The translations under genes and the position numbers were made by a program. The notes under the pieces are model-generated. The model saw only the letters and a program-made list of their open reading frames with translations. It searched no databases and had not been told where the DNA came from. Source: a virus. Taken from it: a stretch of 20,807 nucleotides of DNA. Location of the stretch: IMG/VR virus record IMGVR_UViG_3300023116_000445, positions 1 through 20,807 of that record, one strand, 5' to 3'. Of the stretch, positions 1,026 to 20,807 are shown piece by piece. Position 1 is the stretch's first letter. Every line of letters starts with the position of its first letter.

Positions 1026-1300
1026 CTAATTAGAGTGCTCCACTTAACAAGTTTATCACGCTTTACATTTACACGTTCAGCAATTTCTTTGTGTGTAACT
1101 ATACTATGATCGATCATTAGTTCAATCATACATTGTACATCGCCTATTTCTTCCATCAACTTAATACGTTGATCTTCTTCAATTTGATCAAGTGTTTCAT
1201 ATTTACGAATAATTTTACTACAACGTTGTGTTAATTCGCCACATTCTTCCATCGTGATTGTCATTAATTGTTGTAAATTATTAATTGGACTATTTAACAA
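1022..1300 (-). CDS. MazG-like nucleotide pyrophosphohydrolase (compact, 92 aa)
   Basis: A compact all-alpha NTP pyrophosphohydrolase of the MazG type. Such enzymes hydrolyse nucleoside triphosphates to monophosphate and pyrophosphate using Mg2+. The acidic metal site is visible as E18-E19-x-x-E22 (in MEECGEL) and E51-x-x-D54 (in EEIGDV), the usual EExxE...ExxD pattern, followed by a third helix. At 92 residues it is one MazG unit, shorter than the two-domain E. coli MazG. The true substrate (dNTP, a damaged nucleotide or an alarmone) cannot be read from the sequence. It overlaps the exonuclease gene by 11 bases upstream and the 126-residue gene by ATGA downstream. In a phage operon with an exonuclease it likely serves nucleotide recycling or pool control. 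Confidence 0.82.
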   Translation of the reverse strand: MLNSPINNLQQLMTITMEECGELTQRCSKIIRKYETLDQIEEDQRIKLMEEIGDVQCMIELMIDHSIVTHKEIAERVNVKRDKLVKWSTLIR

Positions 1301-2398: not shown

Positions 2399-2800
2399 CT
2401 ATTGGTTAACAAACGAACCTGGGTCAATAGTTGCCGGTCCGTCACTGTATTCATTACCGATGCTTACATCTTCTGGTTTTTCTTCTGAATAAGCAAGTAT
2501 ACTTTCTGCTTCAACCATACGAACTTCTTTTTCTCCGTCTGGGGTTTCTAGTTTAATGCTTCTTGTCCAGCGTCCGTGTTCAACTAGCACCCAATGTCCA
2601 ACTTCAAACTCGTCTTTGTTGTCTGGGCCTTTGTCGTATACTTTGCCCCAACGTGGATATATGCCACGTGTGGTTCCGTCGTCATCTCTTAAGATAAGTC
2701 CGCTTTTGGTCTTTTGTTCACCAAAATACATATCACTAACAAGTACTCTGTTACCGATAGCTCTTAGTTCACCTTCAATTTTATTCAAGTTTATTGACAT
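2399..2800 (-). CDS. GroES-like phage co-chaperonin
   Basis: A 133-residue protein with the GroES (Cpn10) pattern: a first beta segment IGNRVLVSDM (about 15-24), a mobile-loop region EQKTKSGLILRDDDG (about 28-42), then GIYPRWGKVYDKGPD (46-60), VGHWVLVEHGRWTR (67-80) and a closing strand VEAESILAY (96-104). An acidic tail of about 29 residues follows, which normal GroES lacks. Co-chaperonins cap the host GroEL chamber; T4 gp31 replaces host GroES to fold the large capsid protein, and this protein likely does the same. No GroEL gene is in the window. The ribosome site AGAGG precedes the ATG at 2800, and the spacing to the neighbours is 8 and 17 bases. Confidence 0.85.
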   Translation of the reverse strand: MSINLNKIEGELRAIGNRVLVSDMYFGEQKTKSGLILRDDDGTTRGIYPRWGKVYDKGPDNKDEFEVGHWVLVEHGRWTRSIKLETPDGEKEVRMVEAESILAYSEEKPEDVSIGNEYSDGPATIDPGSFVNQ

Positions 2801-3225: not shown

Positions 3226-3747
3226 TTATCTCAGGAACTCTCTCCAATCCAGGCCATACTGGATTGAATTAATACGATGCACACCTATTAAGTATAGCAC
3301 ATAACTTGCTACACTACTACCTCTACCTACACCCCATACAATATTATTCTCACGCATAAAGTCTACAAGATAGATCATATACTGTAGTAGAGGCATCATA
3401 TTGCGCCCTGCAAACTCTGCTAATTCTTCAGCACATCTTGCTGTTTCTTCTTGTGTTTCACACTTTGTTAGAATATAGTTATGTACGTTAAGTTCTTTAT
3501 ACTCTTTCGGCATAAACCATTCACCCTGACATACACCGTCAAAAGTCTTTTGATCTACATCTAATGGAATATACTTTTGCAGTTTAGGAAGACCTTGTTC
3601 TTCCATAGCACTATTAAACTTATCTATTTCGTCTGTAGGGTTACATAGTACCACATGAACTTTATCCGCATGACCTGAATAGATCATATCGATTAAATCG
3701 CGGTTAGAGAATCTTGGTATTCCTAGTGAATCTGTTTTCATAAGCAT
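3226..3747 (-). CDS. DnaE-like (DNA polymerase III alpha) fragment without the catalytic acids
   Basis: A 173-residue protein whose C-terminal half matches the bacterial replicative polymerase alpha subunit (C-family): AEELAEFAGRNMMPLLQYMI, then FMRENNIVWGVGRGSSVASY (about 130-149), which is the GPGRGSAAGSLVAY nucleotide-binding segment of DnaE, and the start of the following helix YGLDWREFLR. In DnaE the next residues are the PDFDxD motif with two catalytic aspartates; here the protein stops just before it. The PHP domain and everything beyond the palm are also missing. It therefore cannot polymerise DNA alone. It might bind DNA or nucleotide, interfere with host Pol III, or be a remnant. 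A promoter ends at its ATG, and no ribosome site is visible. A second ATG lies two codons in (3741). Confidence 0.75.
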   Translation of the reverse strand: MLMKTDSLGIPRFSNRDLIDMIYSGHADKVHVVLCNPTDEIDKFNSAMEEQGLPKLQKYIPLDVDQKTFDGVCQGEWFMPKEYKELNVHNYILTKCETQEETARCAEELAEFAGRNMMPLLQYMIYLVDFMRENNIVWGVGRGSSVASYVLYLIGVHRINSIQYGLDWREFLR

Positions 3748-4629: not shown

Positions 4630-7600
4630 TTAAACGTTATATTGATAATTTGGAAATAGAATGTATTGTTCATTCACATTATCAAGCGTTCTATCAATTA
4701 TATATCTATCTATTGTAAAGTCGATATTTTTTACATCAAAATTTCCTTGATTGATTTCATTTTTAATGTTTAATAAAATATCTGCACTTCTTCCTGGTTT
4801 ACAATAGCAGACTGGAACTGCTGTTGTGTAATCCAATTCTCTTAGTTCGGTATCTGCTTGCGGTGTACGCATCCATAGTGGAAGATACAATCTATCATTA
4901 CCGCCTGTTATTTCAATCCTATCTCTCATATGATCAATATTTGAATTATAACGTATATTGTCAGATGTTTGTGCTACATTAACACTAGTATTATCTGCTT
5001 TAATTGTTGTATGTGTAGGTCTTATACGCATTGGTTCGCTATCTGCTTTAAGAAGTGTAACGGTAATTTCTTGATCGCCACGAATAGTAATAGTAAAGTC
5101 TTCGTTATCTGCGTCTATAGCAATATTACTTCCTTCTCTAGGATCTATTATAATTTCTTCTTGGCTAGGAACAATAAATCTTACTGTTTGTCTACCATAG
5201 ATAGGAACTTCCGAAATACCACTTGCTGTATTTGTATTGTCATCTGCAATAGAGTATTCTATACTGTCAACTGTTAGTCTGTTTTTATTGGTGATTGTAA
5301 ACGACTTTTTCGTTGTTCCTTGTTTTGGTTTTTGCGGATCTATTACTTCTATATAAACAACTTCGTATATAGTTTCTGTGGTGCCAGGTTCTCTAGCAAT
5401 CGCAGTTTTAAACTCACCTAATCTAAGTCTACGTCTTTTGTGATGCTGGGCTGTTGCAGCAACAAAAACATCTACATTTTTAGATTCTATACCAGCATAT
5501 GCTAACATCTGAATTTGTTTTTGGATACCAAATTCTGGATCATCTGGTCTATAAATATATTCTGGAACAAATACATCTGGATTACTAACGAATGTTTGAT
5601 AACTATTTCTGTTTCTTTGTTCTAAAAGAGGACGCATATACAAGTTACTATAGCGCAAATTGTCTTCATCACTTACCTTTAAAACAAATTCTCTAGTAAT
5701 TGCACTTAACCCAAATCTATCTCTTGCTTCTACAGTAAATTTGTACTCTCTATCAAATGTTGTTCGTTCGCCGCTTATACCGTCAAAGGTAGTTGCGTTT
5801 GCATCAAAGGTTGTTAATCCAGGACCATTTACATCTTGATACTGTCTAGGGCGTCCTATTAATTCTCCTGATCGATTTAATCTTATACCAAACGGTAAAC
5901 GTCCGCTTTCTAGTGTGTAAATCAAACTAGTATCGGGTACAGTGGTAGTTGCTTGTACTCTTAGTGTACTTAAAAAGTTTGCCGGCAGTGTTCCTAGATC
6001 ACTGTCGGTAATCCATCTAATTGTAGTATCAATTTCACCTATAATTTGTATTTCAAAGGTTTTACTTTTAGAAGGAAAATCTACTAATTCGTCTGTTTCT
6101 GCAACAGCGACATCCTTGCTAAAGAAATCTCCTCTGAATAGTGCTATACCTATGTTACGTCCGTCTGTTATATTTCTTTGTAGAGGATTTTGTAGATTTA
6201 ATTTATTTTCATTATCTCTTGTAATAGTTAATAGGGTTGAGCCGTTTTCTGTTCCGTAAAAGAATTCTGCAACTTTAGAAATCAAACGTGTAAATGCTGT
6301 ACTAGGCATTCTAACAGCAAATGCACCAGTATTTTTTTGTTCTATTGTAATTTCACCCTGTACATATTTTCTGCTTAAGGATTGTATAAGCATATTGTTA
6401 TTTGTTTCTTGATCTAACAACAGCTGGCTTGCAGCAACATATTGCCATCTTAGCGCATCAAACTCAAGAATAAATTCGCCGTTATCGTCGGTTATCGGAG
6501 CACCTAGTTCGTCAGTTACTGATTTAGCAGTAAAGGAATCACCGAGAACTACTACTTTCATAATCCCGTTACCACCTGATAAAGGTAGTTTGTCTATATT
6601 AGTATTTGGATTTAAAGCACCAGATTTTGTTGTGTGTATCATTAGTGTATTAACGTCAAATATTCGCAAGAAGTAAATTGTATTTGCATCTGCTCCTACT
6701 GGTAACTGACCTGTACTTTCTATTTGCACTGGTGCTCCGTTGAGCGAGTCTGCATCAAGTCCGTGTAACGGAGATATAATATTACCTGCAATATATTGTT
6801 GTACTGTAGCATCTATAGAACTTTTGTCGCCGAAAGCTACTTGATATATTCCAGCCTGATATGTTTCATCACCGGCATAACTTGCATAGTCTCCTAGATT
6901 GTATTCTGTTCCAACAGTCATCTCTAAACTAGAATTGCTTGCATATACTGCTCCAAAGTTTCTGTCTCTTACTGAATACTCTAGATAAGGTACTATGCTA
7001 TCAATTGTATAAAATTCGTTTTGAGAAAATCTTATCTGACGACCAAGAATTTTATCTTGCTGTTCGCCTGTAAGTTCGCGAACAAATAGATGATTTTGTT
7101 GGGCTACTCCTGGCTTTGTTAAACTTAAAGAAATATAAGGATCTAAAGAATTATCTAGAGTGATAGTATCATATTCAGGATTGGTGTCATCAACTGCTGT
7201 TACTTTATATTCTTTATCATAAAGTTTAATAGATCTCGTTACAAGTTCTTTTAAATCGTCTACACCGTCTATATCACCAGTAAGATCTAGCTTACCTATT
7301 TTAAAGGTAGTTGCTCCTAACAGTGTGTCTTCGTAGAACGTGCCAAATATAGTTGCAGTTCCCGTATCACCTTCAAATCTAGTTGCTGTAACACTAAATT
7401 TATAGTTCTCTGTGATTGCTGGCTGATAAGGAACACGGCCTGTTACTTCGCCCGATTTGGTATCAAGTGACATGCCCGGAGGCAATTGACTAGGAGTACC
7501 GTCATCATTAAAATCGTCTAGAGTATAGTATACTTGACCGTATAAAAATTCGTTCTCGATCACATCTAAAAACAAAGTTACATAGTTATTTGCTCGTCTA

Positions 7601-9429
7601 AATCCTAAGTCTCTTGGAGTTAACCATACTGGGTTTCTAAGATATGTGTTATCTGCTGTAAATATGCCTGTTCCTGATTGCATAATTGCGTTATCAGCAC
7701 GTAGGTAATCATCGCCTACTAGGTATACATTAAATTCTCTTTTTACAAAAGTATCACCGTCTGTAACTGTAACTATAAACGGATAGTAACGATTTAATTT
7801 TTTAGGTATAAGTGTAGGTATATTAAAATCATAGTTTTCTAAATCATAAAAATAAGTACCGTATCCGTTAGCACTTTTTACATTATAATCAGCCATAATA
7901 CTGTCATATAAATCTTGATCATATCCTGCATCTTTTTGACTTCTAGCAAGAGCAAACAAAGGTTCAACAATACCTTGTATTTTTCCGTCGTCAGTTAATG
8001 TTAATCCCGGAGGTAGTTCTCCGTCGCCTTCAGCAATAAAGTATGATAGCGTATCGCCCGCGGGCAAGTCGTTGTCATCTGCAAGCAGTTGATAATCGAT
8101 TAACTCGTTATCTAAAACAAAATAATGATTACTCGGTCCGGCATCTAATAATCCTGAAGGTGTTAACCAATAAGGTTCATCTGGTCCTGAAGTAATTATT
8201 TCAAAAGTTCTATCTTCAGTTCTAGCATTAAAGTAGGCACGTAAAACAAATCTCGATACTGTGTCTCTTTCTACCTCAAAAGGAGTTCCTTTAATTGCGG
8301 TGCCTTCAATTCGTAATCCAGCAGGCAATGATCCTGCTATTAGCTCTATTCTTGGACTTATACCGTTTGCAACAGGTAATCTTATTTCAATAGTATTTCT
8401 TTCTATAATAGTACTTAAAATATTACCACTACCTAAGTTCCACAAACTCTCTACATATCTTTGTTCGCCTAATCCTGCTGTTCTTGCTTGTTTAGTTTGA
8501 TTACCAAAAAAATAAGGATATGCAGGTTCTTCAAGTGTTAAATCTGTAAATGTTATAAAATATGCATATGTTCCGTTCGGAAACTCTGGAGTTTTACAAT
8601 ATCTTCCGTTGTATTGATCAAGTGTCCCTATATTTTCAATGTACTCATAGTCTTGTATATAAGTTCCTAGTTCTAAGGTATAAAGATCATCACCTATATC
8701 TATTTGATCTGTTTCTTTGTATCCTTCTGGTCTATGTCTATCGTTTGTTTTTAACCTATAACTAGATAACATTACAGATGCTCTGCTGTTAGTATCGTCA
8801 GGGTCTTTATATCCGTACGGACCGTATATAGGATATCCATCAAAGCAAAATCCTATTATCTTACTGTGTCCGTCTGCATGTCGCATGTGATCTTTACCGA
8901 ACGAAGTATCTCCATAATATTTGTTAGTAGAATATACTTTTGCATCTTGGAAAACACTTTTTAGAAACTCGCCGCTGTAATAGCCGTAAGACCCAAATGC
9001 ATCTGGAGATCCTGTTGCTGCATCTAATTTAAATACAGATTTCAAACGAAAGACATCAAAATTTAATCCAGGATGAGGTTCTGAGCTACTTGTAGGTAGT
9101 TGCTGAATAGGAAAAGAAGGGCTATTTAAGAACACTCCGTTTGCAGCTATTCCGATAGGACCTGTACGTCTATCAGTAGCATTTTCACTATTACGTGTTC
9201 CTCTATAAGTAAATGTTAAATCTCTACTTTGTTTTGTAATATTATTATTTTCAAGGAAGTTTCGGCGTTCGTTTGCCCCATCATTAATTAAAGGGGTTCC
9301 AGCCGCCGCTGGAAACGGGTCACCATCTGTGACTAATCTAATTGTTTCGCCTTCTAACCCTATTTCTGTAATACTAGGATATTGTCCTGTGTTATCTGAA
9401 ATAGCAATATCGTCAGGTTTAAATGCCAT
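4630..9429 (-). CDS. Giant virion structural protein with YHYH domain and Ig-like repeats (1599 aa)
   Basis: The largest gene of the window. Residues about 90-310 form a YHYH-type domain: GIAANGVFL (93-101), the signature FDGYPIYGPYGY (196-207) and a later NGRYCKTPEFPNGTYAYFIT (274-293). Four putative Ig-like (He_PIG) modules are marked by LPAGLRIEG-AIKGTP (368-383), LPPGLTLTDDGKIQGI (472-487), LPPGMSLDTKSGEVTGR (649-665) and LPFGIRLNRSGELIGR (about 1170-1185). Each of the last three follows a 'W-[LI]-T-x-x-x-L' unit. A Cys pair VCYCKPG lies near the C-terminus, which ends in an aromatic FPNYQYNV. There is no signal peptide. This architecture fits a baseplate- or fibre-associated protein that binds host surface polymers. 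Ribosome site GGGAG and a GATAAATA element precede the ATG at 9429. Confidence 0.85.
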   Translation of the reverse strand: MAFKPDDIAISDNTGQYPSITEIGLEGETIRLVTDGDPFPAAAGTPLINDGANERRNFLENNNITKQSRDLTFTYRGTRNSENATDRRTGPIGIAANGVFLNSPSFPIQQLPTSSSEPHPGLNFDVFRLKSVFKLDAATGSPDAFGSYGYYSGEFLKSVFQDAKVYSTNKYYGDTSFGKDHMRHADGHSKIIGFCFDGYPIYGPYGYKDPDDTNSRASVMLSSYRLKTNDRHRPEGYKETDQIDIGDDLYTLELGTYIQDYEYIENIGTLDQYNGRYCKTPEFPNGTYAYFITFTDLTLEEPAYPYFFGNQTKQARTAGLGEQRYVESLWNLGSGNILSTIIERNTIEIRLPVANGISPRIELIAGSLPAGLRIEGTAIKGTPFEVERDTVSRFVLRAYFNARTEDRTFEIITSGPDEPYWLTPSGLLDAGPSNHYFVLDNELIDYQLLADDNDLPAGDTLSYFIAEGDGELPPGLTLTDDGKIQGIVEPLFALARSQKDAGYDQDLYDSIMADYNVKSANGYGTYFYDLENYDFNIPTLIPKKLNRYYPFIVTVTDGDTFVKREFNVYLVGDDYLRADNAIMQSGTGIFTADNTYLRNPVWLTPRDLGFRRANNYVTLFLDVIENEFLYGQVYYTLDDFNDDGTPSQLPPGMSLDTKSGEVTGRVPYQPAITENYKFSVTATRFEGDTGTATIFGTFYEDTLLGATTFKIGKLDLTGDIDGVDDLKELVTRSIKLYDKEYKVTAVDDTNPEYDTITLDNSLDPYISLSLTKPGVAQQNHLFVRELTGEQQDKILGRQIRFSQNEFYTIDSIVPYLEYSVRDRNFGAVYASNSSLEMTVGTEYNLGDYASYAGDETYQAGIYQVAFGDKSSIDATVQQYIAGNIISPLHGLDADSLNGAPVQIESTGQLPVGADANTIYFLRIFDVNTLMIHTTKSGALNPNTNIDKLPLSGGNGIMKVVVLGDSFTAKSVTDELGAPITDDNGEFILEFDALRWQYVAASQLLLDQETNNNMLIQSLSRKYVQGEITIEQKNTGAFAVRMPSTAFTRLISKVAEFFYGTENGSTLLTITRDNENKLNLQNPLQRNITDGRNIGIALFRGDFFSKDVAVAETDELVDFPSKSKTFEIQIIGEIDTTIRWITDSDLGTLPANFLSTLRVQATTTVPDTSLIYTLESGRLPFGIRLNRSGELIGRPRQYQDVNGPGLTTFDANATTFDGISGERTTFDREYKFTVEARDRFGLSAITREFVLKVSDEDNLRYSNLYMRPLLEQRNRNSYQTFVSNPDVFVPEYIYRPDDPEFGIQKQIQMLAYAGIESKNVDVFVAATAQHHKRRRLRLGEFKTAIAREPGTTETIYEVVYIEVIDPQKPKQGTTKKSFTITNKNRLTVDSIEYSIADDNTNTASGISEVPIYGRQTVRFIVPSQEEIIIDPREGSNIAIDADNEDFTITIRGDQEITVTLLKADSEPMRIRPTHTTIKADNTSVNVAQTSDNIRYNSNIDHMRDRIEITGGNDRLYLPLWMRTPQADTELRELDYTTAVPVCYCKPGRSADILLNIKNEINQGNFDVKNIDFTIDRYIIDRTLDNVNEQYILFPNYQYNV

Positions 9430-9467: not shown

Positions 9468-10184
9468 TTAGAAGAAGCCGCCGTCAATGTTACGTAATTC
9501 AGGTGTTTGGAAAGTTCCGAGATCAACTTCTGTTTGTCCTATCATCCATTCTAGAATGTTATCTACTGTGTCAGAAAATGAACCAAAATCAAATCCGGCT
9601 GTAAGTGTATCCTGGAATGCTTGTAGATCTCTTACATCTATGCCGTATACTAGTCCAGTTACTCCGCCTTCTAGTGCAGCATTCACTGTTGTTGCAGATA
9701 CTGTGTTAACGTTAATAATATTGTTATTTAATGCATCTAGCGTACCGCCTAATTGCGGAGTAGTATCTGTTACAATATCAGATTCTGTATTTGTAATTGT
9801 AAGTGTGTCATTTACTAAAGAAGTGCTAATACCTTCTCCGCCGACAATATTTAAAGTGCTACCTTCTGCAAGTATAATGCTGCCACTTTCAGAACTAACT
9901 ATTAGTTGTTGAAGGCCGCCAACTGCATCAAATGTAATAGTGTTCTCAGAAGAAGTAAGACTAATATTTGTTCCGCCTACTAACTTTTTAAATTGTAAGT
10001 CGTAATTGACTCTGTTAGAAAACACACCTTCACCTACATTACCTAGGTTACTAGCAGTTGTCTGTTCATCGTCTCGTAGGTCTAGTTCTTCAAAATTTTG
10101 ATTAATTTTGATCATTGCTTCACGAAGGTCATCCCCTGTACCGTCGTTTGCAATATTTCCTACATTTATTAGTGATATAGCCAT
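9468..10184 (-). CDS. Fibre-type structural protein (238 aa)
   Basis: A 238-residue protein that begins with the shared fibre module: INVGNIANDGTGDDLREAMI, then KINQNFEEL (about 5-35). A beta-rich body contains GGEGISTSLVNDTLTITNTE and the common phage-fibre phrase DTTPQLGGTLDALNNNIINV (about 139-158). The C-terminal part has short DLGTF/DFGSF strands of the kind found in repeats of marine phage fibre proteins and ends in DGGFF. It is low in Cys and charged residues, as trimeric fibres are. The ribosome site is GGAG at the ATG 10184. The 21-base gap before it holds a GCTAAATA element. It is likely a short tail-fibre or baseplate-attached protein; the exact partner is unknown. Confidence 0.82.
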   Translation of the reverse strand: MAISLINVGNIANDGTGDDLREAMIKINQNFEELDLRDDEQTTASNLGNVGEGVFSNRVNYDLQFKKLVGGTNISLTSSENTITFDAVGGLQQLIVSSESGSIILAEGSTLNIVGGEGISTSLVNDTLTITNTESDIVTDTTPQLGGTLDALNNNIINVNTVSATTVNAALEGGVTGLVYGIDVRDLQAFQDTLTAGFDFGSFSDTVDNILEWMIGQTEVDLGTFQTPELRNIDGGFF

Positions 10185-10202: not shown

Positions 10203-10210
10203 TATTTAGC
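10203..10210 (-). promoter_or_regulatory. Weak late-promoter-like element GCTAAATA
   Basis: GCTAAATA on the minus strand, 18 bases before the ATG at 10184, overlapping the stop of the protease gene. It has two differences from TATAAATA, but its position matches that of the three GATAAATA copies. Confidence 0.3.
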
Positions 10211-12986
10211 TAACAATTATTCTTCCGTGTGCATCATTAAAGAGACTGCTTTGATAATAGAATATGCCTCTTGCTCTAGGCCTAAATGTAATAGTTCCTG
10301 ATGTTGCACCTTGACCTATACTATCGCCGACTTGATTATCTGTTCCCGGACCTTGTACATCTTTCATGTAAATTGGACGCCCTGCACTACTTACTGTAAA
10401 TAGTATTGTATCCCCGTAATCTATGTTAATGTCTATGTTATTACCAAAGATACCCGTTGTTCTATCTTGTCCGGCAATTTCAAACGCATTATCTCCTTGT
10501 TTAGATATAAAGATATCAAATTGTACACCTGGAGGTCTAGCAGGTGATGCATCTAATAAGTCTACTTCAAGGAATTCACTTCTACCATCTAGTTCTAGTT
10601 GCATTACTTCCGAACCTTCTGTTGTTAAATCTCTTGTAGTTGTTATAGTTGTTGTTGCAGTATTGTCATTTACTATAAATGATCCTGTTAATGATTCGTT
10701 TATATCACTTGCACTGATTCCTGTAATTGTATAAGGAACACTAGTTCCGTCAAACACATCAGTTGTTGTAAGTGTAAATGTGACACCAAAGCCTTCATCA
10801 ATTTCGGCATCACTGACAGAAAGTGAATAAGTTGGTGTTTTACTAGTATCTGTTACAGATACAAACACTGGATTAGCAAACGGGTCATCTAAAGAAAATG
10901 TAATTAGTTCAGTACCTTCAGTTAGTTGATCTTCTCTAAGTGTTATGCTTACACTCCCTGCTCCGCTTACAAGATTTATATTACCTGTAATACTACCTGA
11001 GCTTAAATCAAATTCATCTATGCCAGTAATTGTATAACCTAGTAATCCGTCTTCTACGTTTTTCGTAGATAGTGTAAATGTTACAGTGTCACCTTCGTTG
11101 ATAACATCAGCACTCTTAGTAAGTGTGTACACCGGTCTTTGATCTGTAGTACTTGTGTCGTTAATTTGTATACCAATTTCGGCTTTGCCGTTATCTAATG
11201 TTAGCACAAAATTTTGATCACCTTCTGTTGTCAAATCAACTGTGGTAGGAAATGTAAGACTTGCTGTATTACTATTAACAACAAAATTACCAGTTAGTGA
11301 AACACCGTCAATGTCTTCAGATTCGATTCCTGTAATTGTATAAGGAACACTGGTTCCGTTTGCAACATTTTCAGTTGTTAAGGTAATTGTAAAAGATTGT
11401 CCTTCGTCTACTTCTAAAACATTCTTAGTAAGTGCATACGTTCTGTGAGTTGGGAAACTAGACGATAATAAAATATTACTGTTATAAATGTTGTATGCAA
11501 ACTTATTTTCGCCGCCCCAAAGGCTTCTAGAATTTCCATAATCTGTATCAAGCCCTGTGCTTGTGAGTTTATTATCTTGCACATTAGACATGAACCATGT
11601 TTTAACTTGCGCAGGAGTAGCACTTGGATTGAGTCCTAAGTACAATGCGATCATTCCTGCAACTTGTGGAGCTGCCATACTTGTACCGCTTATGTTTGCT
11701 TGCTGGAAGAAAGAACTTCCTTCCCCTTGTTCATAGTCTGCTGTAGCAAAATCTGCAACAACACTTGCTGCACTCATAATATTTGTTCCTGGTGCAAATA
11801 CTGTTGTGCCAGGCCCTGAATTACTCGATTGTGCTTTTTGTTCTGCTCCTACACCGATAGTAGAATCAACGTTATTTACAATAAACGCTTCGTCATCATA
11901 AGGAGACATACCTCGGTGATAAAACCTAGTATCACCGTAGAAACTACTATTCCAACTGTTATCATAATCATCTCCGCCGGGTACATCTACTTTGTGAAAA
12001 TCATTACCCGATGCAATTACAACATGTACACCTTCGTCAATAAGTTCTTGCACATCAACGTCAACACTGGCTACTCTATAAGGATGATTAAAAGATACAC
12101 CATCAAAGCTACCTGTCATGCCTCTATTAGTATCTCTATTAATACCTGTCCAAGGAACTCCTCTATAAGTGCCTCCAGTTACACCTATGTACCTGCTAAA
12201 AAATCCCCAACTCATATTAATCACAGTAGGTCTTTTGTATCCTGTGCTAGGTTCAATAGGCTTATTACGATGCCATAATTTCATTAAGTCAAAAGCAGTT
12301 GTATAAGAAATACCTACAGAAGGATCATTAGATCCTTCTAAACCTGCAACTTTCATAGAAAAAATTTGTGCGTCTTTTGCCCAACCAAAATAAAGTCCTG
12401 TTGCAATGCCAGCAACGTGTGTTCCATGTCCGCTGTAATCGTTATAAAATCCCGAAGGCTGAGTGCCTGATACTCCGGCAGCAGAATACCAGTTTATATT
12501 TTGTACTCTGCTATTGCCTTCTCTATCAGCAAATTCTGGATGTGTAGAATAAATTCCACTATCCATTATAACTACATCTACACCAGTACCTTTTATTGTA
12601 TAGTTATATCCACCGTCTACGGTATTACCGGTATAAGGATCATCTACTTCGTTTAAGCGTCTTAATCCCCAGTTTACAAACGCACCGCTATCGGAAGTTG
12701 TTTTAGTAAAGTCGCTTTCTTGCACAGCATGACGTCCTATAAAAATGTCATCTCTGTCTAAAGGATTTATCTCTACAGCGTAAACTCTGTCATCTTCACG
12801 CAATGCTGCTGCTTCTTCATCTGTAAGCATGTAGTGAGTATTTCTGTAACTGCCTTCTCGAGGATCTGCAATGTCAACAGCTCTGTTTGGAATCGCTCCT
12901 GCACCTGTTGATGCAATCATTTCTGCATCAAATGCAGCATAATCAACGTTGCGGTTTAGACTAACTACGTATTCTTTTTCGCTCAT
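10206..12986 (-). CDS. Subtilisin-like (S8) serine protease with Calx-beta repeats, virion-associated
   Basis: A 926-residue protein. Residues 1-75 look like an inhibitor I9-type prodomain (YVVSLN start; LTDEEAAALREDDRVYAVEI at 54-73). The catalytic domain spans about 105-490 with an intact triad: D142 (VVIMDSG), H187 (GHGTHVAG) and S436 (GTSMAAPQVAG), plus the oxyanion N328 (ASGND). Three tandem Calx-beta-like repeats follow at about 517-612, 619-715 and 720-814, each with an 'EG' and 'YTITGI' and a late 'LTTEG/LTEG'. A cupredoxin-like beta domain ends the protein (about 822-926). There is no signal peptide, and it lies between two fibre genes, so it probably acts in or on the virion: processing neighbouring fibres or cutting host surface proteins. 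Ribosome site AAGGAGC precedes the ATG at 12986. Confidence 0.88.
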   Translation of the reverse strand: MSEKEYVVSLNRNVDYAAFDAEMIASTGAGAIPNRAVDIADPREGSYRNTHYMLTDEEAAALREDDRVYAVEINPLDRDDIFIGRHAVQESDFTKTTSDSGAFVNWGLRRLNEVDDPYTGNTVDGGYNYTIKGTGVDVVIMDSGIYSTHPEFADREGNSRVQNINWYSAAGVSGTQPSGFYNDYSGHGTHVAGIATGLYFGWAKDAQIFSMKVAGLEGSNDPSVGISYTTAFDLMKLWHRNKPIEPSTGYKRPTVINMSWGFFSRYIGVTGGTYRGVPWTGINRDTNRGMTGSFDGVSFNHPYRVASVDVDVQELIDEGVHVVIASGNDFHKVDVPGGDDYDNSWNSSFYGDTRFYHRGMSPYDDEAFIVNNVDSTIGVGAEQKAQSSNSGPGTTVFAPGTNIMSAASVVADFATADYEQGEGSSFFQQANISGTSMAAPQVAGMIALYLGLNPSATPAQVKTWFMSNVQDNKLTSTGLDTDYGNSRSLWGGENKFAYNIYNSNILLSSSFPTHRTYALTKNVLEVDEGQSFTITLTTENVANGTSVPYTITGIESEDIDGVSLTGNFVVNSNTASLTFPTTVDLTTEGDQNFVLTLDNGKAEIGIQINDTSTTDQRPVYTLTKSADVINEGDTVTFTLSTKNVEDGLLGYTITGIDEFDLSSGSITGNINLVSGAGSVSITLREDQLTEGTELITFSLDDPFANPVFVSVTDTSKTPTYSLSVSDAEIDEGFGVTFTLTTTDVFDGTSVPYTITGISASDINESLTGSFIVNDNTATTTITTTRDLTTEGSEVMQLELDGRSEFLEVDLLDASPARPPGVQFDIFISKQGDNAFEIAGQDRTTGIFGNNIDINIDYGDTILFTVSSAGRPIYMKDVQGPGTDNQVGDSIGQGATSGTITFRPRARGIFYYQSSLFNDAHGRIIVS

Positions 12987-12995
12987 TGTTGCTCC

Positions 12996-15900
12996 TTACC
13001 ATGCTGCACCAAACTGCCAGTTTTGTTTGCGCCATATATCAACACTTCCTGTTGTGTAGTCTGCTACACAGAAGTAAATTGATGCACCGTCAAATGCAAC
13101 TTCGCCGATTCTGTCTCCTGATGATCCTTTAGATGTAGAAGGAATGTTGGTTGTTCTAATTCTAAATACGTTACCGTTTACAGTAGTATCTGTTACTCCA
13201 CTGGCACCAATAATAATTTCTGCTGTTGCACCTGTTGTATGTCCTGTACCAATGTTTACGTTACCGTCTGTTGTACTATCGCCACCGTCTATATAAACGT
13301 TACCGCCGGTGCCTGCTGTTGCACCGCCTGCTCTTAGTATAATCGAGCCACCGATTGCTGTGTTACTTGCACCTGCAATAAGATTTACATTACCACCGTC
13401 TTGTCCAGCTAGTTGTGCATCACCCGGTAATAGTTCAATTGCCTGTGGAACAGTAGCACCAGTTGTATCCGGAGTTGTAATTGTAAATGTGCTGTTACCT
13501 TGACCAATAATACCGTCACCAGCAAGTTCGCCTGTTGAGCCGTCAATAATTAGTGCGCCAGCTGTACTGTAAAGGCTGCCCTTAACACCGTCTTGTGCAT
13601 CAATTCTATTTACAAATGTTACATTAGCACCGTCTACTTTCAAATCATTTGAAATATATGTAAGTGGTGTTTGCAATAGTATTTGTGCGCCGCTTGGTGT
13701 TCCGCTATATGTACTGTCAAAGAATCTAATTGTAGATGTTTGTTCTGCATTTTCAATTGATGCAAGTGGAGTACCTAGCATCCTTATTGTAGAAGCGGCG
13801 TCTATTCTTCCGCTTGCATTGCTGAGTGTTGTTGTAGTTGCTGTTGCACCTACAGTTAAGTTTGTATTGTCAATATTACCTGTAACGTTAGTTGTTACGC
13901 CAGTAGCATTTGTTGATAATACTAGTGCATTGTCATAGTATAAGTCTACACTACCGTTATTATTAAAGTAAGCAAAGTCTTCGTTTGTTGCAGCATTTAA
14001 CAATCTAATAGTGTCACCACTTAGTTGTAGTTCACCTGTGGTATTTTGTATAATACCGTTTGTGCCTGTATGCCACATTTCTAAGTCATCGTCAGTACCA
14101 AATACTGCTTTGACACTGTCAGCCATTTTAATGCCAGCGCCTGCTGCAATTTGTCTATTTGTAGTAATTGTGTAACCAGCACCTGCTGCCAAATCTAATT
14201 GTGCTGAAGCATTAATTTGTATAGGTCCTGGAGCTGTGCCGCCACCGTTTGCAATAGTTAGAAAACTATTTCTACCAATGACCCAACTGTCACTTGTAAT
14301 TGGGCCTCGTATTCCTCCGTTCACAGCATCAACTAGTATTGATGAATCATCTGCAAATACACTACCTTTGAAATCTGCTTCAACACTTGTTGCTGTAATA
14401 CTACTAGAGATAATGCCTAGTGCAGCATTTAAAGTGCCACCGTTAATATACCATCTATCGTCACCTTCGCTCCATAGTATAGAACTATTAGTTTCGGTTC
14501 CTCTTTCAATTTCAATACCTGCTGAACCTGCTGTTACGCCAGCACCTGTTTCATTTTTGTTTAATAGTATTGTATTGTCTTCAACTTCCAAGTTTACAGA
14601 GTCGACTGAAGTTGTAGTTCCGTTAACTGTAAAGTTACCAGTAACAATTACGTTATGACCAAATGTTGTGTCACCGTCTACTTGGTTCGTTGCTGCTGCA
14701 TGACCAACTGTAACATTTGTAGCTGTAGCACCTACTGTTAAATTTGTATTGTCTATATTACCAGTAACATCACCGTTAACATTACCAGTAAATGTACCTG
14801 CGTTAAGTTCTACCCATTCGCTGTTTTGTCTAAATTGTGTTCTGTTAGTATCTGTGTTATAAATTACGTCACCGTTTACTACTGGAAAGCCGTCTCTTGT
14901 GTCAGTTGATATTTGCGGCAACTTAAATAGTCCGCCTTCAATTCTAACACGGTTACCTGTTTCTAAAACTAAATCCCCGCCACTGCTAAATGTACCTACA
15001 CCTTCACCTTCTACTGTGAAACTAGTTGCTGTTAAACTTGTAGCAGTTAAATTTGTAAATTCTGCGTTTGCAACATTAAGTGAAGTAAAGTAACCTGTAC
15101 CAAACTTTTTAGTTACAGAACCAATAGCAGCACTACCGTCTGTTTCAGGTGTAATTGTACCAACAACTTCAGTATCACCTAGTTTAACAAAATATCCTGT
15201 ATCAGGATCAATGTTAATATTTTTACCTTGTATATAACCTTCTGTAACTGGAAAACGTATATCGCCGGCGATTTTACCTGTTAGTCCGTCTACAAGCAGT
15301 GTACTATCATCTGCATAAACGTTACCGCTTAAATCACCTGTTGCACCTATTAAGTTTGCAGAAATTAAATCATTGCTGTTAAAATTTAAACTTGCATTTG
15401 TAACACCACCTATTGTGTTTACAAGATGAAATCCGTAGCCTTCATTTGCAGCAGTTTTATCACCTGCTACAACATTGTTTGAACGTGTTTCATTGTTAAC
15501 CAAGTCACCTTGGAACGCACCTAAAAGTGTATCAGCAGTTAGTGTAACAAAGTGGCCTTCATTAAACTTTTTAGATGCTGTACCTATGAAACCTTCACTG
15601 TCGTTGACGGGTTGCAAGCCGTCAACTAATCTTGCATTTCCTAAATCAACTGTATATCCAGGATTAGGAATAATATTAATTTCGTTACCTTCTATATAAC
15701 CTTGTACTGCTTCAAATACAATTTTGTATCCATTTTGTACGGTTAGCGTATCTGTTTTGTTTGAAGCAAACCCTGTAATATCACCAGCAGTGCCCGGTTC
15801 CCATAATTCTGTTACTTCGTTCCAAACAATAGTTTGTCCGTCGTTAGCGCCGTTACGTGTTAGCCTTGCAGCATTAATTCGTCCGTTAATATGATCAACA

Positions 15901-16532
15901 AGTAGTGTACTATCTTCACCAAATACACTGCCTTGTAAATCGCCTGTGTTTTTAATTTCAACTGTAAGCGAACCGCCTGCTAAGTCTGCTTGTGTTACAT
16001 ACCCTGCATCGTTTTCGAGATCTGAAATCTGTGTTGGGCCACCTACAATTACACTGTAGGGTATTTGATTTGTAACAGCATCAAATACTGTACTTCCGTT
16101 GTACCCTTTGATACTACCTTTAAAATAGTTTCCGTGTACTTCGTTAAATTTCTTTTCGTCTGAACCTATGTTGCTTGTAAGTGTAGTAATCGGAGTAATA
16201 TTACCGCTTACAGTCATGTTGCTTACTGCTAGTGGAGTTTCGCCTCCACCTAGTGCAAAAAATTCCATGCCTGTACCTGAGGCGTTTACTCTAACAATTA
16301 AGTTTTCACTACCAACATAACTTCCAGGTGTGTCAGTTAAGTCTAAAAATCCGGAAGGTTTAAGTTCTTCCCCGTTTACACTAACACTGGCTGCATTAAT
16401 AGCTCCCACAGCATTAATATCTTGAACATCAACTATACTTACTTGTCTTAGATCTAAGTTATCACCAGCCGGTATTTCTTTGATCTTATTACCGTCTGTT
16501 GTGTCTACTACTAGTGGAAATCTATTTGCCAT
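12996..16532 (-). CDS. Repeat-rich long tail-fibre-like protein (1178 aa)
   Basis: A 1178-residue fibre protein. The N-terminus (MANRFPLVVDTTDGNKIKEI, then PAGDNL) is of a type I associate with marine T4-like fibres. The body is built from repeats: four copies of a 'G-x-V-x-x-DST-LLVD-x-x-NG' unit near residues 200, 400, 720 and 980, three 'N/A-IGS-x-x-KKF' units near 130, 330 and 475, and two 'NIDNTNLTVGATAT' copies. A Gly-rich stretch near 1080-1100 (GGSIILRAGG, TGGNVYIDGG) is followed by a C-terminal tip GEVAFDGASIYFCVADYTTG and an aromatic end WQFGAAW. The repeats suggest a long trimeric beta shaft with a host-binding tip. The gene begins after a GATAAATA element and stops 9 bases before the protease start, so the two are co-expressed. 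Confidence 0.85.
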   Translation of the reverse strand: MANRFPLVVDTTDGNKIKEIPAGDNLDLRQVSIVDVQDINAVGAINAASVSVNGEELKPSGFLDLTDTPGSYVGSENLIVRVNASGTGMEFFALGGGETPLAVSNMTVSGNITPITTLTSNIGSDEKKFNEVHGNYFKGSIKGYNGSTVFDAVTNQIPYSVIVGGPTQISDLENDAGYVTQADLAGGSLTVEIKNTGDLQGSVFGEDSTLLVDHINGRINAARLTRNGANDGQTIVWNEVTELWEPGTAGDITGFASNKTDTLTVQNGYKIVFEAVQGYIEGNEINIIPNPGYTVDLGNARLVDGLQPVNDSEGFIGTASKKFNEGHFVTLTADTLLGAFQGDLVNNETRSNNVVAGDKTAANEGYGFHLVNTIGGVTNASLNFNSNDLISANLIGATGDLSGNVYADDSTLLVDGLTGKIAGDIRFPVTEGYIQGKNINIDPDTGYFVKLGDTEVVGTITPETDGSAAIGSVTKKFGTGYFTSLNVANAEFTNLTATSLTATSFTVEGEGVGTFSSGGDLVLETGNRVRIEGGLFKLPQISTDTRDGFPVVNGDVIYNTDTNRTQFRQNSEWVELNAGTFTGNVNGDVTGNIDNTNLTVGATATNVTVGHAAATNQVDGDTTFGHNVIVTGNFTVNGTTTSVDSVNLEVEDNTILLNKNETGAGVTAGSAGIEIERGTETNSSILWSEGDDRWYINGGTLNAALGIISSSITATSVEADFKGSVFADDSSILVDAVNGGIRGPITSDSWVIGRNSFLTIANGGGTAPGPIQINASAQLDLAAGAGYTITTNRQIAAGAGIKMADSVKAVFGTDDDLEMWHTGTNGIIQNTTGELQLSGDTIRLLNAATNEDFAYFNNNGSVDLYYDNALVLSTNATGVTTNVTGNIDNTNLTVGATATTTTLSNASGRIDAASTIRMLGTPLASIENAEQTSTIRFFDSTYSGTPSGAQILLQTPLTYISNDLKVDGANVTFVNRIDAQDGVKGSLYSTAGALIIDGSTGELAGDGIIGQGNSTFTITTPDTTGATVPQAIELLPGDAQLAGQDGGNVNLIAGASNTAIGGSIILRAGGATAGTGGNVYIDGGDSTTDGNVNIGTGHTTGATAEIIIGASGVTDTTVNGNVFRIRTTNIPSTSKGSSGDRIGEVAFDGASIYFCVADYTTGSVDIWRKQNWQFGAAW
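13837..13886. repeat. Direct DNA repeat, copy 1, within the long fibre gene
   Basis: This 50-base segment matches 14719-14768 at 44 of 50 positions by eye and encodes the protein phrase NIDNTNLTVGATAT. The two copies lie 882 bases apart within one gene and could recombine. Confidence 0.75.
14323..14366. repeat. DNA repeat shared with the neighbouring fibre gene (16861-16904)
   Basis: A 44-base segment that matches 16861-16904 at 38 of 44 positions. It encodes the DSxxLVDAVN unit within the 1178-residue fibre; the other copy lies in the separate 167-residue gene. Confidence 0.7.
14719..14768. repeat. Direct DNA repeat, copy 2, within the long fibre gene
   Basis: Second copy of the 50-base repeat at 13837-13886. 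The differences lie mostly at third codon positions, so the protein phrase is kept. Confidence 0.75.
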
Positions 16533-16547
16533 TCTCTAAATCCTATT

Positions 16548-16575
16548 GTTATACATATTTATCGTAACTTATCAA
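16548..16575 (-). promoter_or_regulatory. Possible sigma70-like promoter overlapping a GATAAATA element
   Basis: TTGATA (16575-16570), a 16-base spacer and TATAAC (16553-16548) on the minus strand; each box differs from consensus at one base. The spacer contains GATAAATA (16563-16556). Start would be near 16541, just before the 1178-residue fibre gene. The late-type element is the more likely driver of a fibre gene; the two may be alternatives. Confidence 0.4.
16556..16563 (-). promoter_or_regulatory. Late-promoter-like element GATAAATA
   Basis: GATAAATA on the minus strand, 23 bases before the ATG at 16532, in the 39-base gap between two fibre genes. The surrounding ACGATAAATATG is identical to the copy at 9451. 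Confidence 0.55.
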
Positions 16576-17075
16576 AGCGCCGCTATCCTTGCTTGGAAGT
16601 CAGCAAAGTCTGCACTTGCTGCTACTTCTGTCTTTAGGGTTGCTAGATCGATCGTTTCAGATTGTAGGTAATCTGTACCTGCTACTGCTGCTGTTATGTT
16701 TCCTGCGCCGTCTGCTTTTATAATACCGTTTACAGCACCGACAATTGGATCTGTTTCTGTATAAGCAGTTAAGTATCCTGCTGCTGAATGATCTCCCCAG
16801 CCGTGGGCAGTATCCCAATTTGCACTATCTTCTACGTTTGCTTTCGGTATGTTAGCATTAACAGCATCAACTAGTAATGTTGAATCTTGTGCAATTACAT
16901 TACCTATTATATCACGTTCAAGCGTATTACCTTCACTTTCTACTCTTGAGTTTAAACTTTCAACATCTGTATAAAGTTCGTCGAAGTTATTATTAATTTT
17001 TGTAAATGCTGTGCGTAGCGGATCGCCATCGCCTTTGTTTTGACTGCTACCGGTATTAATTGACTGCTTTGCCAT
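16572..17075 (-). CDS. Fibre-type structural protein (167 aa)
   Basis: A 167-residue protein starting with the shared fibre module INTGSSQNKGDGDPLRTAF, then TKINNNFDELY (about 6-35). A short coiled-coil region (VESLNSRVESEGNTLE) leads into the DSTLLVDAVN unit (about 64-73), also found in the 1178-residue fibre. It then carries the phage-fibre phrase WDTAHGWGDHSAAGYLT (about 84-100) with TETDP. The C-terminal third holds ADGAGNITAAVAGTDYLQSE and ends in a short Ala-rich helix. It may be a short fibre or connector that stacks on the long fibre. Ribosome site AAAGGA precedes the ATG at 17075, and the gene overlaps the 52-residue gene upstream by 20 bases. Confidence 0.83.
   Translation of the reverse strand: MAKQSINTGSSQNKGDGDPLRTAFTKINNNFDELYTDVESLNSRVESEGNTLERDIIGNVIAQDSTLLVDAVNANIPKANVEDSANWDTAHGWGDHSAAGYLTAYTETDPIVGAVNGIIKADGAGNITAAVAGTDYLQSETIDLATLKTEVAASADFADFQARIAAL
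16861..16904. repeat. DNA repeat shared with the long fibre gene (14323-14366)
   Basis: Counterpart of the 44-base segment at 14323-14366 (38 of 44 identical), encoding DSTLLVDAVN. It links two separate genes and suggests past duplication or recombination between them. Confidence 0.7.
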
Positions 17076-17214
17076 TTGAATTATCCTTTGTTACCACTAC
17101 TCTTAATTTACCAGAAGTAACAACAGCCTGAACAGCGTTGTTACCTCTTATGTCAACATTAGAAGCTTTGGCTTTTCCTTTGTCAATAAGTCTTTCTATG
17201 TGTTTTTTACCCAT
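17056..17214 (-). CDS. Small basic protein (52 aa) between two fibre genes
   Basis: I read a 52-residue frame from the ATG at 17214-17212 to a TAA at 17058-17056. Its start overlaps the stop of the upstream gene as TAATG, a sign of translational coupling, and its end overlaps the next gene by 20 bases; without it there would be a 138-base hole in an otherwise packed region. The protein begins MGKKHIERLIDKGKAKASNV and continues with a beta-rich part (NNAVQAVVTSGKLRVVVTK). It is basic and has no membrane segment. It may be a small accessory of the fibre proteins, such as an assembly factor. No family is recognised. Confidence 0.72.
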   Translation of the reverse strand: MGKKHIERLIDKGKAKASNVDIRGNNAVQAVVTSGKLRVVVTKDNSNGKAVN

Positions 17215-20200
17215 TAAACTTTACCAACCACAACTTCTACAACACCTCTATCAGTGTTAGTTTTGTTTTCTAGTGCCTTACCAATTACTGTACCAACTTT
17301 TGGATTGTTGTTTACAATAGCATAACCTGGAACTGCGCTTGTTACAAGTAAGTCACCTTTTTCTACTTTACCTACTACTTTACAAGGTACTCTACCTTGT
17401 AATGCAACACCTACAACGTGATCACCTTCTAGTGCGCTGTTCATTAAGTGTGCAGGATTAGTTGTAACAACACCTGCTACTTTATGGTCATCTCTTCTTG
17501 CACAAACAGAAACTTCTGCTTCTCCACCAAACACAAGCACTGTACCTGGCTCGTAATCTGCATCACCTAAATAGTTTTCTGCAAGGTCAGCATAATATGC
17601 TTCTGTTGCTGTTCCGTTGAATACTGTTGCATACACTGTATTATACCTCTTAGTCGAAAGTCCAATGTTATAGATGTTGTTAAAGTCAGGCTGCATACCA
17701 GTACTGCTAAAGATAGCCGGTACCAAACTAGATGTTGTAGCACCATCAGCAACAACCATACCAATTTGTCCAGTTGTTGTTTTACCTGTGTTAGCACCTA
17801 AGGCAATACCTGTACTTGCAGCACCTTTTTCTTGAGTACTTTCAATAAAGTTTGAATAGATCCAGTCTACAGCAAGATTTGGTTCATTATTAAATCCTGA
17901 TAAGCCTTGTAGAATACTTTGTGCAACACCTGTGCTTCCTACGTTAATGCTTCCTGGGAAGTTAACAGTAGGAGGAGAAGTTGGTCCACCACCTTGTGAT
18001 GTAAATACCGTACCTTGTGCAGGTGTTTTAACTTGGAGTTCTGTAGTATTAAGTGACATAACTTCATAAGTTGAGTCACCGCCAAGTATAACACTATTAA
18101 CTTGGATACTTCCACTACCGTTTGTTTTAACAATACTATCAACTTCACCTGTTCTAGTTACGTTTGTAATGCCGTAAGTACCTGTACCAGTTTTAATTAG
18201 TGCTTCGCCGGGATCATTTACTCCCGGTATTAACGTTGTAAAGTCGCCGTCTGCTAAGCCGCCACCTTCTGCAATTACAGTTGCAAATGATATTGCACTT
18301 ACATCACCGTTACCTGCTGCACTTCTACCTATAACTGTATCGGTGCTTTGCTGTGCAAGTTCACCTAGTGCAATACCGTTGGCTTTGATGCGTACATAAC
18401 CGCTTGTTGTTTCAAAGTTTTCATCACTGAATTTAGCAAGACCTAGATCCGCTTGTACTTTAGGATCTGTTCCAGCCCAACCCGAAGCTGCATTGTTTTC
18501 ATCAAACGTATCAGCAGCTTGCATATTCAGTTTGCTTTGAGCTATTGCTGCATTTGCATTTACATCAGCATTTAGAATTGTATCTGGTTTAATTTGGATA
18601 TCTAATTCTAGCTGCCTACTTGCAGGTTCAGTTATTGGAGCTGTTGTTGTACGATTTACTGTAACTTCCACATCAGCACCAGCAGCATAAACAGCATTCA
18701 TCCATTCGTCAAACGGTCCGTCGATAACTGGACCCGTAGCGCCGCCTGGTACTTCAATTGTATCAGGTGCAGGAGAAATACCTGCAGGCTTACCGTCTGA
18801 CAAATCTGTAACACTTGTTGGCTCGTATGTAATAACTTGAATGTTGCCTTCAATACTTGTGGTAATCTTAATATCTCTAATTGTACCAGTTGCAGCAGTT
18901 ACATCGCCTACAAAGTTATCACCTACTTCAAATTGTCCTGTACCGCCTATGTTGTCTGCATCGATAATTACAGTCTTGTAGCCTGTTGCAGCCATAAGTT
19001 GCGCCTCTGCGATACCTTCAAATGTAGTATCACGCATCTTATCCATAGAGTTGAATTCTCCAACAGTTGCATCTACATATGCTTTAGTTGATGCATCTGA
19101 ATCAGCAATCGGTGCTCTTAAGTTAGTTACAGAATTACCTGCTGCGTTTAAGTCTGCTGCTAGTGCAACACTACCGTTTGCAGAAAGCACACCTGGACCA
19201 ATTAAGTTACCAACTGACTGGCCGTTATGATCAAAGCCTAAACGTCTGTTAACATATCCACGTACCGCACTTTCTGTCGGTACTGTGTCTGATGCGTTAT
19301 CAGTCATTGCTGTGTCTGTTGAGAATTCAGTAACAACAACACCACGCTTAAAGCCTAGACCGTCAACGTCTGAAAGCGCAATACTTGCACTGAACGAAAC
19401 TGTACCAGTACCTTGGTCAACGCTAAAGAAGCGTCCAACTCTAAAGATACCGTTTTGGTCTGTGGAAACATAGAACACACGCCCTTTACCAATTTCTCTA
19501 ACTTCGTTTGCTTGGTCTGGTGTTTGTGGCAGTCCAAAGATAACGTTTGGATAGTTACTTGTGTTAAATCCACCTGAACCAACGTCTAAGAAATCATGTC
19601 CAGTTGCACGACAAGTTGAAATTCTAATTGTAATTGTAGCTGGTGCACCTTCTTGTAGACCTGCCCTTAGTACAACGTTTTCGTTGCCTAATATTACTGT
19701 ACTTGCTAGTCCTGTACCTGTTGCAGGATAGTTAATTTCTGACTTGTCGTTAATACTAACAATACCAAAATCGTCTGTTTCTGAAGCCGTTGCTTGAACC
19801 TCGTATCTTGCTGTGTCGTCGTTATATTTTACACCACGATAGTTAAACACTCTGTGTTTTTTACCGCCCCAAGCCATTACCATCGGTAACACTGCACCAG
19901 AAGCTGTAAATGTTGCCGGACGGTGTACTTCAGGTGTTGCAGTATTGTTGTTCAATCTAAATATTTCATTAGGCTCGTAAATCTTAACAACAGCAATTAC
20001 TGTATCACCTGCCGTGTCGCCCATTGTACCTGTATTTGTAAGTGGGTTTCCGTCTAAATCGTAAACTGTGTTAGCATTAGATTGACCGTTTACACGATCT
20101 ACAACAAGTCTAATATAGTCATATGTGCTGTCAAACCCTGCTAGTGTTTCGTCGTTTAATAGAGCTTCGCCTGTGGCATCAGCTGTTCCGAAAGAAATTG

Positions 20201-20807
20201 ATCTATAAACATAATCTGGGTTTTCTCTAAATACAATCGCAGTTGAGGGTCGAATTGATAGCACATCTGGTCTATTAATATCGTTTAGTACAAACGTTTG
20301 GTTATATCTAACTTGTATTAATTCGTTGTGTAGAATATTATCTAGCAGACCGTCTTGGCTAAATTGCCCGTCATTTGTGCTAAAGTTAACTTTATAAACT
20401 TGACCGCTGTACTTCGGGGTTTCTGCTGTAATACTAGGTACACCTGTAACAGATATTTCTGTAATATTGCCGTCTAGGCTCACAGCATCAACTGTAATTG
20501 TTAGATCGTTTCCAGGTGACACACCGTCAAGATTTGTACCTGCAACAACAATTGTATCGCCCACCTCGAAATCTACACCAGCAGTTTCTATGTTTACATA
20601 ATAGTAAGATGTCTGATTTTTTCTAACAGTAAATGTTGGAGTTCCGCCGCCGAGTGTGCTTGTTATCGTGTAAGGAATGCCTGTGCCGTCAACAGCATAT
20701 TCATCAACATTAACAGCCGTTACTTCGATATTAGATATTTCATAACGTGCATAAATGTCTCTTGCTACGTGGTAATAATCAAATTCACCCCTGTTGCTAG
20801 GCGGAAC
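17214..20807 (-). CDS. Large virion structural protein with possible self-processing C-terminus, N-terminus cut by window edge
   Basis: The frame is open from base 20807 to a TAA at 17216-17214, giving 1197 visible residues; there is no stop upstream, so the true start lies outside. The codon at 20564 is only an in-frame GTG (Val), not a believable start. Visible parts: a beta-rich N-terminal region with Ig-like GTGIPYTITSTLGGGTPTF; a central region with FRVGRFFSVDQGTGTVSFSA and GFKRGVVVTEF; a fibre phrase DSDASTKAYVD; and a late NIGLSTKRYNTVYATVFNGT. The end, about the last 130 residues, starts YYADLAENYLGDADYEPGTV and resembles the Peptidase_G2-type auto-cleaving end domains of phage fibres. 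The domain call is tentative; the structural role is well supported by context. Confidence 0.8.
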   Translation of the reverse strand, partial: VPPSNRGEFDYYHVARDIYARYEISNIEVTAVNVDEYAVDGTGIPYTITSTLGGGTPTFTVRKNQTSYYYVNIETAGVDFEVGDTIVVAGTNLDGVSPGNDLTITVDAVSLDGNITEISVTGVPSITAETPKYSGQVYKVNFSTNDGQFSQDGLLDNILHNELIQVRYNQTFVLNDINRPDVLSIRPSTAIVFRENPDYVYRSISFGTADATGEALLNDETLAGFDSTYDYIRLVVDRVNGQSNANTVYDLDGNPLTNTGTMGDTAGDTVIAVVKIYEPNEIFRLNNNTATPEVHRPATFTASGAVLPMVMAWGGKKHRVFNYRGVKYNDDTARYEVQATASETDDFGIVSINDKSEINYPATGTGLASTVILGNENVVLRAGLQEGAPATITIRISTCRATGHDFLDVGSGGFNTSNYPNVIFGLPQTPDQANEVREIGKGRVFYVSTDQNGIFRVGRFFSVDQGTGTVSFSASIALSDVDGLGFKRGVVVTEFSTDTAMTDNASDTVPTESAVRGYVNRRLGFDHNGQSVGNLIGPGVLSANGSVALAADLNAAGNSVTNLRAPIADSDASTKAYVDATVGEFNSMDKMRDTTFEGIAEAQLMAATGYKTVIIDADNIGGTGQFEVGDNFVGDVTAATGTIRDIKITTSIEGNIQVITYEPTSVTDLSDGKPAGISPAPDTIEVPGGATGPVIDGPFDEWMNAVYAAGADVEVTVNRTTTAPITEPASRQLELDIQIKPDTILNADVNANAAIAQSKLNMQAADTFDENNAASGWAGTDPKVQADLGLAKFSDENFETTSGYVRIKANGIALGELAQQSTDTVIGRSAAGNGDVSAISFATVIAEGGGLADGDFTTLIPGVNDPGEALIKTGTGTYGITNVTRTGEVDSIVKTNGSGSIQVNSVILGGDSTYEVMSLNTTELQVKTPAQGTVFTSQGGGPTSPPTVNFPGSINVGSTGVAQSILQGLSGFNNEPNLAVDWIYSNFIESTQEKGAASTGIALGANTGKTTTGQIGMVVADGATTSSLVPAIFSSTGMQPDFNNIYNIGLSTKRYNTVYATVFNGTATEAYYADLAENYLGDADYEPGTVLVFGGEAEVSVCARRDDHKVAGVVTTNPAHLMNSALEGDHVVGVALQGRVPCKVVGKVEKGDLLVTSAVPGYAIVNNNPKVGTVIGKALENKTNTDRGVVEVVVGKV

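Follow-up and report, generated by a model that had tools for sequence, protein, structure and literature searches.

Subtilases in phages and their nearest relatives

Subtilases of a related kind are already known from marine phages. The family is recorded as PHROG 9158 or T4-GC_292 and appears as "subtilisin-like serine protease" in several public records; its members include P-SSM2_297, S-MbCM7_177, S-H38 gp095, S-CREM1_165, and a protein of S-WAM2, all from marine cyanomyoviruses. These combine a prodomain with a subtilase domain, keep the catalytic triad, and lie in a fibre/baseplate neighbourhood. A search of the available literature returned no study of a PHROG 9158-type protease in phage virions. 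An S8 peptidase (T4-GC518) has been described in P-HM1/P-HM2, alongside other peptidase clusters, with no virion role mentioned in the part of that paper available (PMC3037559).

The window, a 20,807-nucleotide stretch of DNA from a marine tailed phage (IMG/VR record IMGVR_UViG_3300023116_000445), encodes a protein with a full-length match to PHROG 9158 (residues 2-926, profile positions 4-696 of 696, E=1.6e-84). It is matched by 52 phage records, most of them from cyanophages, which bears out an earlier, sequence-only reading that similar proteins may exist in marine phages; that reading had missed that the family was already established. The isolate proteins are at most about 36% identical to it over the prodomain and catalytic domain, and none covers 80% of the query. 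What is new here is a divergent clade, its architecture, a shared cupredoxin module, and a link to virion mass spectrometry (MS) data. Relative to the isolates, the window protein adds a Calx-beta-like stalk and a degenerate cupredoxin domain, and it belongs to a clade free of isolates. Outside phages, the proteinase K/aqualysin I group (S8) gives the best sequence and structure matches and has an I9-type propeptide, which the window protein probably shares. Those enzymes are secreted with a signal peptide, whereas the window protein has none and carries long insertions, a beta stalk, and a cupredoxin domain.

A predicted subtilase with a complete catalytic site

The gene occupies the interval first reported for it, 10206-12986, as the open reading frame and its translation confirm; the strand, which had not been given, is minus. 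The gene, its translation signal, and its catalytic features are as follows.

12986..10206, minus strand: protease gene, ATG start, 926 aa, without a signal peptide and without cysteine (open reading frame and translation)
12992..12997, minus strand: ribosome-binding site AAGGAG, overlapping the upstream gene's stop codon at 12996-12998 (sequence reading)
11487..12674, minus strand: subtilase catalytic domain, residues 105-500 (Pfam, PDB sequence match, model, and Foldseek)
12561..12563, minus strand: catalytic Asp142 (DSG motif and conservation)
12426..12428, minus strand: catalytic His187 (GHGTH motif and conservation)
12003..12005, minus strand: oxyanion-hole Asn328 (ASGN motif and conservation)
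11679..11681, minus strand: catalytic Ser436 (GTSMA motif and conservation)

Because AAGGAG lies 9 bp ahead of the protease ATG and overlaps the stop codon of the preceding 1178-aa fibre-like gene, the two genes are probably translated in series. The lack of a signal peptide, claimed earlier, agrees with hydropathy, by which the protease has no signal-peptide-like hydrophobic segment. Within the window, no RNA families or tRNAs were found, and candidate promoters and terminators were no better than shuffle level.

Pfam Peptidase_S8 (PF00082) matched residues 133-485 with E=1.7e-29, over profile positions 1-287 of 288. Among solved chains, the sequence is nearest to aqualysin I and to enzymes resembling proteinase K; a Foldseek search with the model placed it on aqualysin I with E=2.1e-17 (TM by target 0.85). 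The triad and oxyanion Asn named in the sequence-only reading are all present, each in its canonical motif. Conservation was assessed in a set of 70 viral-contig loci, nine loci from genome collections, and phage isolates. This set yielded 84 sequences that cover the catalytic domain, reduced to 51 distinct ones at 90% identity. D142, H187, N328, and S436 are kept in 51/51 distinct homologues spanning the sites and fall among 18 invariant columns out of 509. The search patterns applied to viral contigs held none of these four residues. Homologues commonly lacking the triad had been named in advance as the finding that would speak against a protease; the triad is intact in every one of the 51. 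Since all four residues are retained throughout, the pattern fits selection for catalysis. Two other explanations were rejected: a chance open reading frame is excluded by the E-values and by the 51 homologues with an intact triad, and a pseudo-protease arising by loss of catalytic residues is excluded by their presence both in the window and in all 51 homologues. At the level of sequence, the product of 12986..10206 is confirmed as an S8 subtilase with a complete catalytic site. Some homologues (L090, L091, L089, L015, and L020) carry catalytic-domain insertions of about 100 to 300 residues, in several cases located between the Asp motif and the His motif.

Prodomain and linker

12762..12986, minus strand: I9-type prodomain, residues 1-75 (b-a-b-b-a-b topology in the model; I9 HMM in homologues)
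12675..12761, minus strand: linker, residues 76-104 (low pLDDT at 85-94; expected self-cleavage region)

An AlphaFold2 model built from 25 sequences had a mean pLDDT of 82 and a pTM of 0.58, at which the relative placement of the domains is uncertain. It gave, in order, an N-terminal domain, a linker, the subtilase, three similar beta domains, and a C-terminal beta sandwich. The N-terminal domain adopts a b-a-b-b-a-b topology over residues 4-73, with pLDDT roughly 80-93. The Pfam I9 profile matches 8/25 homologous N termini (best 1.9e-4) and not the N terminus of the window protein itself, and a prodomain profile searched against the PDB gave no credible match. The predicted topology and the profile matches in part of the family fit the earlier assignment of an I9-type prodomain; we regard residues 1-75 as an I9-type prodomain that is supported, not proven. 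Within the prodomain, the motif HYMLTDEE shows very strong conservation, which is partly an effect of search-pattern choice. Residues 85-94 have pLDDT below 50, as for a poorly ordered linker, and the mature aqualysin chain, when aligned, starts just ahead of residue 105. We infer that self-cleavage would occur within the 76-104 linker.

A repeat stalk and an overlooked cupredoxin-like domain

11160..11441, minus strand: Calx-beta-like repeat 1, residues 516-609 (repeat comparison and model)
10851..11132, minus strand: Calx-beta-like repeat 2, residues 619-712 (repeat comparison and model)
10554..10832, minus strand: Calx-beta-like repeat 3, residues 719-811 (repeat comparison and model)
10209..10529, minus strand: degenerate cupredoxin-like domain, residues 820-926 (family profile, solo fold, Foldseek, and ligand alignment)

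Of the three Calx-beta repeats proposed earlier, the tandem repetition is real: the pairs are identical at 36/95, 50/86, and 35/82 residues (38-58%), and 0/500 shuffles reach their scores. The name is less secure. A Calx-beta profile matched 1/25 homologues (1.2e-5) and not the window protein, and because the name rests on that single match we call the repeats Calx-beta-like. The stalk region varies among relatives, from none in L010 (518 aa) to a larger one in L059 (1447 aa), and about half of the homologues consist of a bare prodomain and catalytic domain of 510-590 aa without an adhesion module.

The sequence-only reading had overlooked the C-terminal domain. Modelled alone it folds with confidence (pLDDT 90); its family profile matches nitrite reductase and plastocyanin (2.8e-6 and 7.2e-6), and Foldseek aligns it with rusticyanin at a modest TM by query of ~0.56. 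It thus resembles the cupredoxins in profile and fold and differs from them in having lost all four type-1 copper ligands, the corresponding positions being R870, S913, F916, and A919. The His-Cys-His-Met ligand set is kept in most relatives. Intact modules were located at L005:14003-14341, L007:13082-13420, L059:14000-14338, and L061:3349-3684, and in P-SSM2_298 (within L072) and S-SCSM1 gp141 (within L075). The last two are a proximal and a long tail fibre, respectively. A search with one intact module matched 55 phage records, and among other cyanophage proteins the module occurs in ones named tail fiber, baseplate wedge tail fiber connector, minor tail protein, and peptidase S8. Copper binding on a virion would be unexpected; a search of the available literature found no paper linking cupredoxin, phage, and tail fiber.

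Genomic neighbourhood and lineage

12996..16532, minus strand: 1178-aa fibre-like protein, upstream; N terminus conserved beside the protease in the window's clade
9468..10184, minus strand: 238-aa protein with a T4 gp9/gp10-type N-terminal anchor, downstream (PHROG 677, 7.1e-10; weak PF07880)
16572..17075, minus strand: 167-aa protein with a gp9/gp10-type N-terminal anchor (Pfam and PHROG searches)
4630..9429, minus strand: 1599-aa YHYH/He_PIG virion protein (PF14240, 7.3e-31; virion and baseplate PHROGs)
17214..20807, minus strand: tail fibre running past the window end (PHROG 9851 tail fiber, 5.7e-33)
3226-3747, minus strand: PolIII-alpha-like open reading frame, 173 aa (PF07733; closest to jumbo phages, e.g., PA5oct and GAP32)
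1290-1817, minus strand: Rv2179c-like exonuclease
2037-2390, minus strand: PRA-PH/MazG-like pyrophosphohydrolase
1022-1300, minus strand: second, weak MazG-like open reading frame
2399-2800, minus strand: weak GroES-like open reading frame (Cpn10, below cut-off)

The protease lies inside a tail-fibre cluster, as had been noted, with virion genes on both flanks: two gp9/gp10-anchored genes, a tail fibre, and the YHYH gene. PHROG 677 is annotated as baseplate wedge tail fiber connector. The upstream 1178-aa protein matched no Pfam or PHROG family and gave weak partial matches in phages. A gp9/gp10-type-anchored gene adjoins the protease in 27/51 homologues, a count in which some contigs end too near to tell, and the neighbouring fibre genes vary widely between relatives.

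In the tree, the window falls in a well-supported 12-sequence clade (98/96) without any isolate. The same fibre-protease-YHYH cassette is carried by L087 (PBPT01000016.1, 335 kb), which is binned as Candidatus Neomarinimicrobiota and is probably a jumbo phage genome misbinned into a bacterial metagenome-assembled genome. The PolIII-alpha-like protein is nearest to those of jumbo phages of other hosts, and 3226-3747 appears to be one segment of a polymerase gene that is split, in a phage with a large genome. No psbA-family gene was found in 20 related contigs, two of them of 345 and 400 kb and some of them fragments. The window phage represents a lineage apart from the cyanomyoviruses, related to the 335-kb contig and with a jumbo-phage-type PolIII-alpha gene. 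A cellular gene or moron is not favoured, given homologues in fibre clusters, the L087 cassette, and the nine matches in bacterial and archaeal genome collections, which are mostly metagenome bins.

A homologue tagged as a virion protein

Among viral proteins, the best structural match is S-SCSM1 gp144 (L075:11932-16164, 1411 aa; E=9.4e-36), which shares 30% identity over 545 columns of prodomain and catalytic domain, has an intact triad, and lies beside fibre genes. It differs in that two Laminin_G_3 lectin-like stretches behind the catalytic domain (1.2e-25) replace the repeats and the cupredoxin domain; Laminin_G_3 domains on family members suggest carbohydrate or cell-surface targeting. 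In its record it is noted as "baseplate wedge subunit (virion protein)." That name is apparently a misannotation, since the protein has a prodomain, a subtilase whose triad is intact, and two Laminin_G_3 stretches.

The tag is another matter. The S-SCSM1 record contains 33 "(virion protein)" notes, and a further 14 of its products are called "virion protein," for a total of 47; in CsCl-purified S-SCSM1 particles, 45 proteins were found by MS (PMC9602691). Tagged proteins include NMNAT and D-Ala carboxypeptidase, both named as detected in that paper, as well as a translation repressor; several proteins with a tail or head annotation do not carry the tag. From the matching counts and this distribution, the tag very probably marks MS detection. 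The paper's section on virion-associated proteins mentions no protease. The suggestion that the protease is built into the virion gains support from the gp144 tag, from the C-terminal module that annotated tail fibres also carry, and from the gp9/gp10-anchored neighbours. Because the gp144 tag matches the published virion MS, so far as that paper is available, incorporation of the window protease into its own virion is likely, judged from sequence comparison.

Function of the protease

Related proteases are fused to adhesion-type lectin, cupredoxin, or Calx-beta-like modules, and for this reason we favour, with somewhat more belief than doubt, a virion-displayed, self-processed protease whose substrate at adsorption is host surface protein; the homologues without an adhesion module, about half, weigh against it. 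Lacking a signal peptide, the zymogen would be synthesized in the host cytoplasm, and the I9-type prodomain would chaperone folding, hold the enzyme inhibited, and be cut off by self-cleavage in the linker. The catalytic head would be borne with a beta-domain stalk, comprising the three repeats and the degenerate cupredoxin domain, and may sit at the tail fibre or baseplate periphery together with its gp9/gp10-anchored neighbours. There it could trim host surface proteins at adsorption, as a protein-cutting counterpart of tail polysaccharide depolymerases. Tailspike depolymerases of other phages are tail-borne enzymes that clear polysaccharide from the host surface. We propose, from their description in the literature, that the window enzyme works alike, except that it would cut protein; no sequence relation is claimed.

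Tight coupling to fibre genes, the lack of a signal peptide, and the conserved catalytic residues would also suit an assembly protease, one that clips fibre or baseplate proteins encoded nearby, for example the upstream 1178-aa fibre, inside the infected cell and may stay in the particle. Fibre maturation of this kind would preserve the triad. A specific processing protease fits poorly, however, because the neighbouring fibre genes differ so widely between relatives, and lectin or cupredoxin modules on several members also speak against it; we consider it unlikely. The triad would likewise be preserved by one self-cleavage in a PCSK9-like module, with the prodomain kept in the active site and the protein then acting in the fibre either structurally or in receptor binding. 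PCSK9 chains are among those that Foldseek aligns to the model, and conservation of the prodomain motif, subject to the search-pattern effect given above, would agree; but resemblance to PCSK9 is generic to S8 enzymes with a propeptide, and the nearest enzymes, in sequence as in fold, are proteinase K-type proteases that are active, which makes this improbable. A soluble protease released at lysis to digest host debris or surface protein outside the particle would suit the many bare homologues, and is very unlikely given the gp144 tag, in line with the available MS report, the tail-fibre modules on several members, and the repeated location in fibre clusters.

Were the particle-borne protease proposed here active, phages would have a second means of clearing the host surface, protein-cutting as opposed to sugar-cutting, and the question of how marine phages get through surface protein layers could be approached concretely. 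Tentatively, several marine tailed-phage lineages (cyanomyoviruses and jumbo-type phages) might carry a tail zymogen subtilase that is switched on outside the cell, for example by seawater calcium, and cuts host-surface protein layers; such enzymes could, on this same doubtful footing, so far have gone unrecognized behind the labels "baseplate wedge" or "hypothetical." Direct tests are within reach, since isolates with homologues exist (S-H38, S-CREM1, S-SCSM1, and P-SSM2). In S-SCSM1, the "baseplate wedge subunit" holds a subtilase whose catalytic site is intact, and the authors who described that phage do not list it among the non-structural virion proteins.
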